A stretch of 64,000 bases of DNA. Source: Sycon ciliatum. Its lineage: Eukaryota > Porifera > Calcarea > Leucosolenida > Sycettidae. The translations under genes and the position numbers were made by a program. Below the pieces are notes generated by a model. It saw only the letters and a program-made list of their open reading frames with translations. It had not been told where the DNA came from and searched no databases. The stretch spans positions 24,676,302 through 24,740,301 of the forward strand of contig NC_088649.1 in NCBI RefSeq assembly GCF_964019385.1. Direction: 5' to 3'. Below are positions 13,887 through 15,715 of this stretch, piece after piece. Within the stretch, counting starts at the first letter, position 1. Each line of letters opens with the position of its first letter.

Positions 13887-14232
13887 TGTAGTATCCCTGC
13901 CCGATCAATACGGAAGCAGTACGGAACTAATACGGAGCTTGCCTGATGTATATTTAGTGTATCTCCGTATGTAAGCGTACGTCGTCTGCTGCATAAAAGC
14001 GGCTGCGCATTTCTGTTTTGATGAAGATTAGATTAGATTAGATTAGATTGGATAGCAATGAAAGCTAACTCGAAGAATAAGGATTCAGCCTCTAGGTGAG
14101 CACCGGAGAGAAAGTTATTTATTTTGCCGCTTCTTCTTTCACGAACGATTATATTTCAGGTGTGTACCTGAAAGTAGAATAAAAGTAATTATTGTTGATT
14201 TCACCGCGCCTACCACTCGGCTACCTATTACA
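13887..14232 (+). repeat. 5' LTR (346 bp)
   Basis: Contains CATAAAAG (TATA-like, near 13992), a (GATTA)n run and AATAAA near 14180, in the order promoter, transcript start, polyadenylation signal. Confidence 0.93.
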
Positions 14233-14324
14233 TTGGTGGCAGCGGTGTAGTTTTAAATAAAACAACGTGATTCGACCCCAGACCCCATGGCTCAACCCGC
14301 TGCAGCTCCGTGCGACGAATCAAG

Positions 14325-14699
14325 ATGAGAATCATGTTTCTTGCTTTCCTGGGCCTGGCCATGCTTATTAGCCTGCAGCACAGTCATGGTGCTAACGTGG
14401 ATCACCATTCTTTCCGCACGGCATCCATTGGAGACTCCGATGGCGATTCCAAGCGACCCGCTACCTACACGTATACTACCGGTGGTGATGGCGAAGCTGA
14501 TGAGGAGGACGACATGCAGGCTGCTGACCAAGACAAGGAGGGTATTCCCCAAGACCAGCAGCGTTTGATTTTCGCCGGCACGCCGTTGGCAGACGGCCGA
14601 ACCCTGAGTGACTACAACGTTGAGCAGGAGTCCACTATTCACTTGGTACTTCGTCTCCGTGGTGGGATGCAGATTTTCGTCAACACTCTTCCTGGCTAG
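14325..14699 (+). CDS. Signal peptide-polyubiquitin chimera
   Basis: The ATG at 14325 opens 124 codons. Residues 1-23 (MRIMFLAFLGLAMLISL...) form a clear signal peptide; an acidic, low-complexity linker follows (GDGEADEEDDMQAA). Then comes ubiquitin from about residue 28 to its Gly-Gly end (DKEGIPQDQQRLIFAG, GRTLSDYN, HLVLRLRGG), and the next repeat starts MQIFVNTLPG before TAG at 14697. The TAG falls where ubiquitin has Lys11. Translation past it continues in frame as TITLYVTQSDAIDNVKTMIQ, then an unrelated tail to TAA near 14881. So the source was a polyubiquitin gene. The Ile44-face residues RLIFAG are present; Lys48 is replaced (FAGTPL for FAGKQL). Whether it is translated is unknown. Confidence 0.85.
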   Translation: MRIMFLAFLGLAMLISLQHSHGANVDHHSFRTASIGDSDGDSKRPATYTYTTGGDGEADEEDDMQAADQDKEGIPQDQQRLIFAGTPLADGRTLSDYNVEQESTIHLVLRLRGGMQIFVNTLPG

Positions 14700-14991
14700 A
14701 CCATCACTCTTTACGTCACGCAAAGCGATGCTATCGACAATGTGAAGACCATGATTCAAGACGAGGAGGGAGGTTATTTGTCTGACGCCGAGCTAGCCGC
14801 TCTGAGTGACCGGCTCAACCAAGATGAAGATAAAACCTGGCTCGCCCTCCGCCATAGCTCCAGCCGCCGCCGGGGTTACTAACGCTGATTCCAGGTATGG
14901 CATTTTCTTTCCTGTCTTCCTTCAGTCTCTCTGTTCTCTTCAGTCTTCCTTTATGCGAGTGTGTGAATCCAGTTTAGTTTGGTAGGCGTCT

Positions 14992-15008
14992 GATCATGGT
15001 GAGCCACG
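14992..15008 (+). other. 17-nt motif shared by two unrelated LTR elements
   Basis: GATCATGGTGAGCCACG here is identical to 5303-5319 in the other short LTR element. In both it lies downstream of a CAG/GT splice-donor-like site (14894-14898; 5187-5191) and contains an ATG opening MVSH. It may be a remnant of a shared leader or gag start. Confidence 0.6.
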
Positions 15009-15364
15009 GTTTACCCAGCTAACGTGGGACAATGTGTGTGACAACGCCCCTTATAGTTATAATGTATTCAGTTCGGTTTTTGAACTGCGATGTTCCTGGC
15101 GGGTTGTGCCAGCGTTGTGCAGCAAGAGTGCTGTAGTTTTTCAGGTCCTATTTGGAGGACAGTTCTTTCCCCTTTTGACCCCGTGAGATCGTGTGAACCT
15201 GGTGTGCTTCTACTTTATGATTTGTTATCAGTTCATTTCTTCTGTCTACTCTAAACGTTATCATTTCCGATATAATTTGCCATCTTCCGGGTGACGCTGT
15301 TGTTCATAACTCTTCACTAATTTTTGAGAATCACGAGGGCGTGATTATCTGTAGGAAGGGAGGG

Positions 15365-15715
15365 TGTAGTATCCCTGCCCGATCAATACGGAAGCAGTAC
15401 GGAACTAATACGGAGCTTGCCTGATGTATATTTAGTGTATCTCCGTATGTAAGCGTACGTCGTCTGCTGCATAAAAGCGGCTGCGCATTTCTGTTTTGAT
15501 GAAGATTAGATTAGATTAGATTAGATTAGATTGGATAGCAATGAAAGCTAACTCGAAGAATAAGGATTCAGCCTCTAGGTGAGCACCGGAGAGAAAGTTA
15601 TTTATTTTGCCGCTTCTTCTTTCACGAACGATTATATTTCAGGTGTGTACCTGAAAGTAGAATAAAAGTAATTATTGTTGATTTCACCGCGCCTACCACT
15701 CGGCTACCTATTACA
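15365..15715 (+). repeat. 3' LTR (351 bp)
   Basis: Same as 13887-14232 plus one additional GATTA unit. Confidence 0.93.

Follow-up and report, generated by a model that had tools for sequence, protein, structure and literature searches.

Pestivirus RNA can carry ubiquitin insertions with a function in processing, a case in which a replicating RNA gained host ubiquitin by RNA recombination. Among retrotransposons bounded by long terminal repeats (LTRs), Bs1 of maize has a hybrid open reading frame (ORF) derived from more than one host-gene capture, and a model in which microsimilarity drives switching between LTR-element RNA and mRNA has been described (PMC5408686). Animal LTR elements have also been reported to capture host genes (Tan 2016, as told in PMC5408686), and in metazoan LTR-mediated retroposition, according to the same account, template switching at microsimilarity joins host mRNA to LTR-element cDNA. 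Terminal-repeat retrotransposons in miniature (TRIMs), described from plants and from animals (ant, honey bee, taeniids and bivalves; PMC6934838), are small, have two terminal repeats and a polypurine tract, lack genes for movement and occur in tandem forms, and the Veju TRIMs are described as having gained foreign sequence by abnormal template switching before spreading (PMC13317346). Here we describe an LTR element from the calcareous sponge Sycon ciliatum, found in a stretch of 64,000 nucleotides (NC_088649.1, positions 24,676,302 to 24,740,301 of the forward strand; hereafter the window). Positions 13887-15715 of the window are a complete non-autonomous LTR retrotransposon, and its interior carries exactly one ubiquitin unit, circularly permuted. 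We consider it probable (roughly 70%) that two successive captures of host mRNA made this non-autonomous family, with the ubiquitin unit entering by a template switch. No report of an LTR element carrying ubiquitin was found in the literature searched.

The likeness to each of these systems is partial. Pestiviruses are RNA viruses, whereas the carrier here is a retrotransposon whose ORF holds only ubiquitin residues 32-76 and 1-10. Bs1 is a plant element with other genes, while in the sponge a permuted unit of a repeat gene interrupts one of the captured sequences, and the product belongs to a large family. The products of metazoan LTR-mediated retroposition, as PMC5408686 describes them, are retrocopies; the captured pieces here are the interior of a replicating family. 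TRIMs are smaller than 1000 bp with repeats of 100-250 bp (PMC6934838), whereas this element measures 1.83 kb with LTRs of about 340 bp and a 124-aa ORF, although it too has a tandem form (L018, below). The sequence inserted in Veju is described as unknown (PMC13317346), whereas the donor is identified here. The first-pass annotation of this locus had taken host-gene transduction by such elements to be known mainly from plants, a view that the animal reports (PMC5408686, PMC6934838) qualify.

The element is 1829 bp long and is bracketed by a CTGA target-site duplication (TSD; 13883-13886 and 15716-15719). On the forward strand, as are all stranded features of the element given below, it begins with a 5' LTR of 346 bp (13887-14232; TG...CA, with TATA-like and AATAAA signals recognized by eye) and ends with a 3' LTR of 351 bp (15365-15715). 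Aligned along all 346 positions of the 5' LTR, the two LTRs agree without a substitution and differ solely by one 5-nt ATTAG unit. The primer binding site TGGTGGCAGCGGTG (14234-14247), which presumably fits the 3' end of animal tRNA-Leu, is positioned 3' of the 5' LTR, and the polypurine tract GTAGGAAGGGAGGG (15351-15364) is positioned 5' of the 3' LTR, after a non-coding region of about 470 bp (14883-15350); the same letters recur in 26 and 28, respectively, of the 29 other two-LTR copies described below. Pfam found no retroelement domain in the cargo frame or in the five other frames of at least 50 aa (155 aa antisense, 75 aa starting at TTG within the cargo, and 59, 50 and 54 aa), and none of these five matched any Pfam family at E 0.1. 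The first-pass annotation had described a short LTR element with near-identical LTRs, both priming sites and no retroelement genes, and in all of this it was right; the absence of gag-pol marks the element as non-autonomous. An upstream ORF of 13 codons, MAQPAAAPCDESR (14287-14328), whose TGA overlaps the cargo ATG, is possibly the start of a lost gag. Separately, 14096-14159 and the equivalent place in the 3' LTR (GTGAGC...TATATTTCAG) resemble, by eye, a 64-nt intron.

The cargo is a 124-aa ORF (14325-14699) that the annotation had read as a signal peptide and a linker joined to a polyubiquitin fragment. Its ubiquitin portion is confirmed by Pfam (PF00240, E 7.9e-16), the signal peptide and acidic linker are assigned by eye only, and the polyubiquitin fragment has to be redrawn as a single permuted unit lying within a second captured sequence. 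In order, the frame runs through the signal peptide, the linker, AADQDKEG, ubiquitin 36-76 and MQIFVNTLPG, and is closed by an in-frame TAG at 14697, which stands at ubiquitin codon 11, 10 codons into the second ubiquitin piece. Downstream of the TAG the frame continues through ubiquitin 12-35 and then GYLSDAELAALSDRLNQDEDKTWLALRHSSSRRRGY (14772-14882), the presumed 3' part of the first captured sequence. With the motif counted at each end, the permuted unit occupies 14532-14771 (residues 32-76, then 1-35). Both junctions carry CAAGAC(A/G)AGGAGGG, present as CAAGACAAGGAGGG on the left (14529-14542), where it is common to host ubiquitin codons 31-35, and as CAAGACGAGGAGGG on the right (14757-14770), and the spacing between them is 228 nt, or one unit. 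Two polyubiquitin repeats in order were considered and rejected, as the pieces form one permuted unit. Translation yields residues 32-76 and 1-10 before the TAG, rather than the full 76-residue fold ending in GG of a functional ubiquitin. Five of the seven ubiquitin lysines are lost (hypergeometric 0.007), an observation made after the fact.

The host has a polyubiquitin array on C1 (C1:3161275-3162414; five units matched), a second array on C4 (C4:35376249-35377616; six units) and a ubiquitin-L40 fusion gene on C4 (C4:27730531-27730758). A single protein is encoded by all 12 host units tested; it departs from the human sequence by E24D and A28T, and the element ubiquitin shares the host D24 and T28. 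Over 240 positions, and for the window copy only, the element unit is 84, 87, 86, 86 and 81% identical in nucleotides to the C1 units, compared with 72-76% for the six C4 units and 75% for the ubiquitin-L40 fusion, the comparison leaving out a further ubiquitin place at C4:24139160 (residues 34-76). Judged by this highest identity, the donor of the ubiquitin part is the C1 polyubiquitin gene or its closest relative among those tested, which supplies the host source that the annotation had proposed to seek and upholds its view that a non-autonomous LTR element captured host sequence. The C1 array is one open frame of 396 codons, so introns cannot decide between capture from mRNA and from DNA.

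We envision the following sequence of events. In a first capture, cDNA of a small, acidic, secreted protein bearing an EF-hand-like loop would have taken the place of gag-pol. Reverse transcriptase working on the resulting RNA would then have switched onto C1 polyubiquitin mRNA at CAAGACAAGGAGGG, which codes QDKEG in both templates by chance, copied a single 228-nt unit and, on reaching this motif again in the adjacent repeat, switched back. Because reverse transcription starts from the 3' side of the RNA, the right motif would have been the point of entry and the left one the point of return, and because the tandem repeat offers the motif every 228 nt, the simplest result is the gain of just one unit, circularly permuted, inside the EF-hand loop. 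The chimera would thereafter have spread with the element, moved in trans by the proteins of a partner. Alternatively, the permuted unit could have come from gene conversion or unequal exchange at the DNA level between an integrated element and the C1 array, and a tandem array sharing a 14-nt motif with the element would be expected to give the same product. We regard this as unlikely, since an identity this short, shared by unlinked loci, seems, on general grounds, a less probable basis for exchange than a jump during reverse transcription.

The window copy is far from alone, although the annotation had treated the chimera as a one-off. A DNA search of the genome, in which the best 40 of 1313 candidates were scored and 43 matches listed, so that counts are lower bounds, found at least 41 places (window included) matching at least 1543 of the 1829 bases; of these, all except the window itself are 90-96% identical, and two of the 41 overlap within one tandem. 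Thirty-nine other loci were fetched, and 32 of them have two full LTRs, or 29 when a duplicated insertion on C5 is counted once. Twenty-eight of these 29 carry their own TSD of 4-5 bp, the exception being L018 (G000:C13:182449-186805), a tandem of the form LTR-interior-LTR-interior-LTR in which the first two LTRs do not differ by substitution. As the other copies lie at other sites with TSDs of their own, an assembly join is rejected. The C5 insertion is present four times (L032, L035, L036 and L037; 31.97-32.32 Mb, about 94-147 kb apart) with the same GCGCA duplication, and its surroundings thus seem to have been duplicated. LTR divergence is 0-1.83% in 28 of the 29 copies, with zero substitutions in 11, and 3.95% in the remaining one.

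A second sample of 32 copies, none already in the first, was taken from ubiquitin matches. The best 150 of 1102 candidates in that search comprise 12 host units, 2 other ubiquitin-like places and, by subtraction, 136 element-like matches that start at residues 19-27 and end at 75-76 like the window's own, a minority of the 136 having been inspected for LTRs. All 68 fetched copies that aligned through the cargo carry it, both searches having ranked candidates by likeness to the cargo or to ubiquitin and so favoured copies that do. An ORF of the 124-aa type is kept to its stop in 59 of the 68 (33/36 in batch 1 and 26/32 in batch 2), including L010 with TTG for ATG; the others have frameshifts (4), early stops (3) or read-through (2). 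In L015, L032, L069 and L084 the frame is broken within the signal peptide or directly behind it. Ubiquitin codon 11 is TAG in 65 copies, TAT in two and TGG in one. Cargo is identical between L061 and L062 and between L078 and L079, which may be duplicated loci, and L039, L041 and L043 also agree. The nearest relatives of the window copy vary by region, a sign of recombination among copies. The window element thus belongs to a large, recently active family, and the annotation's proposal that it moved recently with its cargo is well founded.

We also considered where the secreted part came from. Joined past the ubiquitin, the left and right flanks read D-Q-D-K-E-G-Y-L-S-D-A-E-L and fit the EF-hand loop pattern, which we take to be PS00018, the second half of the loop being furnished by the tail GYLSDAELAALSDRLNQDEDKTWLALRHSSSRRRGY. 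The full pattern has no match among 127,996 six-frame residues of the window, where its right half has 245 (0.19%), so a chance match across the junction is unlikely, and the flanks likely, if not provably, derive from an EF-hand parent. In a protein database search, cargo residues 1-70 matched 49 proteins (ENA contigs), and the tail region has relatives in 8 proteins. Readable ubiquitin follows the linker in 40 of the 49 N-terminal matches; in 9 the sequence stops or goes out of frame no later than the junction, and the same stop terminates 20. Fourteen of the 49 protein clusters have the reading TQSEAG and depart from the ubiquitin frame around residue 49 (P0006, P0010, P0016, P0028 and P0030 are examples), with P0038 re-entering it. 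These clusters hold up to 13, 7 and 6 members, which may come from one or from several species or assemblies and need not equal separate insertions; their having several members suggests that copies whose ubiquitin frame is broken have multiplied too. Three proteins (P0001, P0002 and P0018) read upstream through LVAAV, encoded, by eye, by the primer site in that frame. P0009, P0023 and L024 retain the I61 and L67 of host ubiquitin, which places some copies closer to the donor. A search of viral contigs gave 29 pattern stretches, none confirmed as a viral relative.

A host gene that already held the secreted-ubiquitin fusion might instead have been captured whole, and the fusion is indeed the same across the 68 fetched copies. 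No such gene was recognized among the 49 protein matches or the best 150 ubiquitin matches, partial lists that a gene with introns or a low score would escape, and we think this origin improbable. Against two successive captures, in turn, several points must be set. The right junction has some three additional nucleotides that go unexplained, and gene conversion from polyubiquitin DNA would give the same product. The joined flanks score weakly against EF-hand_8 (12.6 bits, E 0.12, cut-off 28), which leaves an EF-hand parent short of proof, and neither a donor for the secreted part nor (P0044 left aside) an uninterrupted EF-hand host gene was found among the 49 N-terminal matches. Our confidence is further lowered because the searches favour cargo-bearing copies and because evidence of the shifted-frame lineage comes solely from proteins, the TQSEAG-type deletion being absent from the 68 fetched DNA copies.

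Whether the ORF is under selection, for which a Ka/Ks comparison had been suggested, received a divided answer, as pair tests suggest constraint that site counts do not confirm. In a test of 14 pairs, 70 changes in the ORF were synonymous where 52.7 were expected (sd 5.9), against 15 and 21.2 after the stop. In 34 independent pairs with a composition-preserving null, the figures for the ORF were 119 and 85.9 (sd 7.5); they were 43 against 24.2 in the signal peptide, 28 against 29.7 in the linker and 46 against 32.3 in the ubiquitin part, with 42 against 47.3 after the stop; one premature stop was present in the ORF where 8.9 were expected. The corresponding omega values are about 0.39 (signal peptide), 1.08 (linker), 0.60 (ubiquitin) and 1.18 (after the stop). 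Protein likeness to ubiquitin was the criterion by which batch 2 was chosen; batch 1 on its own (18 pairs, from copies picked by DNA likeness) gave 62 against 46.1 in the ORF and 14 against 19.9 after the stop. Because copies recombine, one variable site is counted in many pairs. When each variable site in 69 sequences was counted once, the shared-versus-singleton N/S came to 0.76 for the ORF as a whole (p 0.47); its parts gave 0.36 (signal peptide, p 0.13), 1.29 (linker) and 0.98 (ubiquitin), and the stretch after the stop 1.20. None of these is significant, nor were the single-batch values for the ORF (0.49, p 0.16; 0.54, p 0.18) or the signal peptide (0.21, p 0.11; 0.18, p 0.08). Changes are spread almost equally over the codon positions (101/102/116). 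Indels in batch 2 are more numerous after the stop than in the ORF but crowd at the purine-rich junction and were not used. Strong selection on the ORF, favoured by a pN/pS of 0.52 compared with 0.97 after the stop, was rejected in view of the flat codon positions and the site counts. The pair tests point weakly to constraint up to the stop.

One could imagine that the ORF serves the element: its signal peptide would have ribosomes carry the RNA to the endoplasmic reticulum (ER), where the partner's Gag assembles, so that copies with the ORF are mobilized better, and the ubiquitin half would be retained for its part in folding or turnover of the nascent chain. Such a role would be in keeping with the synonymous excess and the shortage of stops in the ORF and not after it, with batch 1 in the same direction, and has an analogue in Ty1, whose RNA is described as reaching its assembly site by signal recognition particle/ER targeting (PMC3945221). 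It is rather unlikely, given that site-count N/S is not significant, that codon positions are nearly equal and that 14 of the 49 protein clusters, some with multiple members, leave the ubiquitin frame. There is about an even chance that the ORF is nothing but decaying passenger DNA, with youth alone accounting for the intact frames, which in copies so young are no proof of constraint. The site counts, the shifted-frame clusters, the TAG at ubiquitin codon 11 in nearly all copies and the youth of most of them agree with a passenger, whereas the pair-based excess and stop shortage, reaching up to the TAG and not beyond, do not. On balance we lean towards an ORF that is largely passenger.

Elsewhere in the window, fragments of long interspersed nuclear elements (LINEs) lie at 47425-48225 (+), 51600-52316 (-) and 56447-57091 (-); of 10 frames scanned, two gave RVT_1 above the cut-off and one an endonuclease below it, and the pieces look metazoan. 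A single tRNA gene lies at 18168-18242, identified as Ser(TGA) by ARAGORN and as a tRNA by Rfam.

Regardless of whether the ORF does anything for its carrier, this family, in which the chimera has been amplified to many copies, lets one read off which repeat gene served as donor, at which motif the jump likely took place and what resulted, the permutation of a single unit. The family is thus a datable, many-copy natural experiment on the gain of host sequence by LTR elements, and it bears on whether a retrotransposon can keep an ORF without retroelement ancestry. We doubt that the element has made the secreted-type host chimera its own selected gene, with the signal peptide bringing RNA to the partner's membrane assembly site, and rate this as quite unlikely; if true, the element would be a coding parasite of another element, without a Gag of its own.
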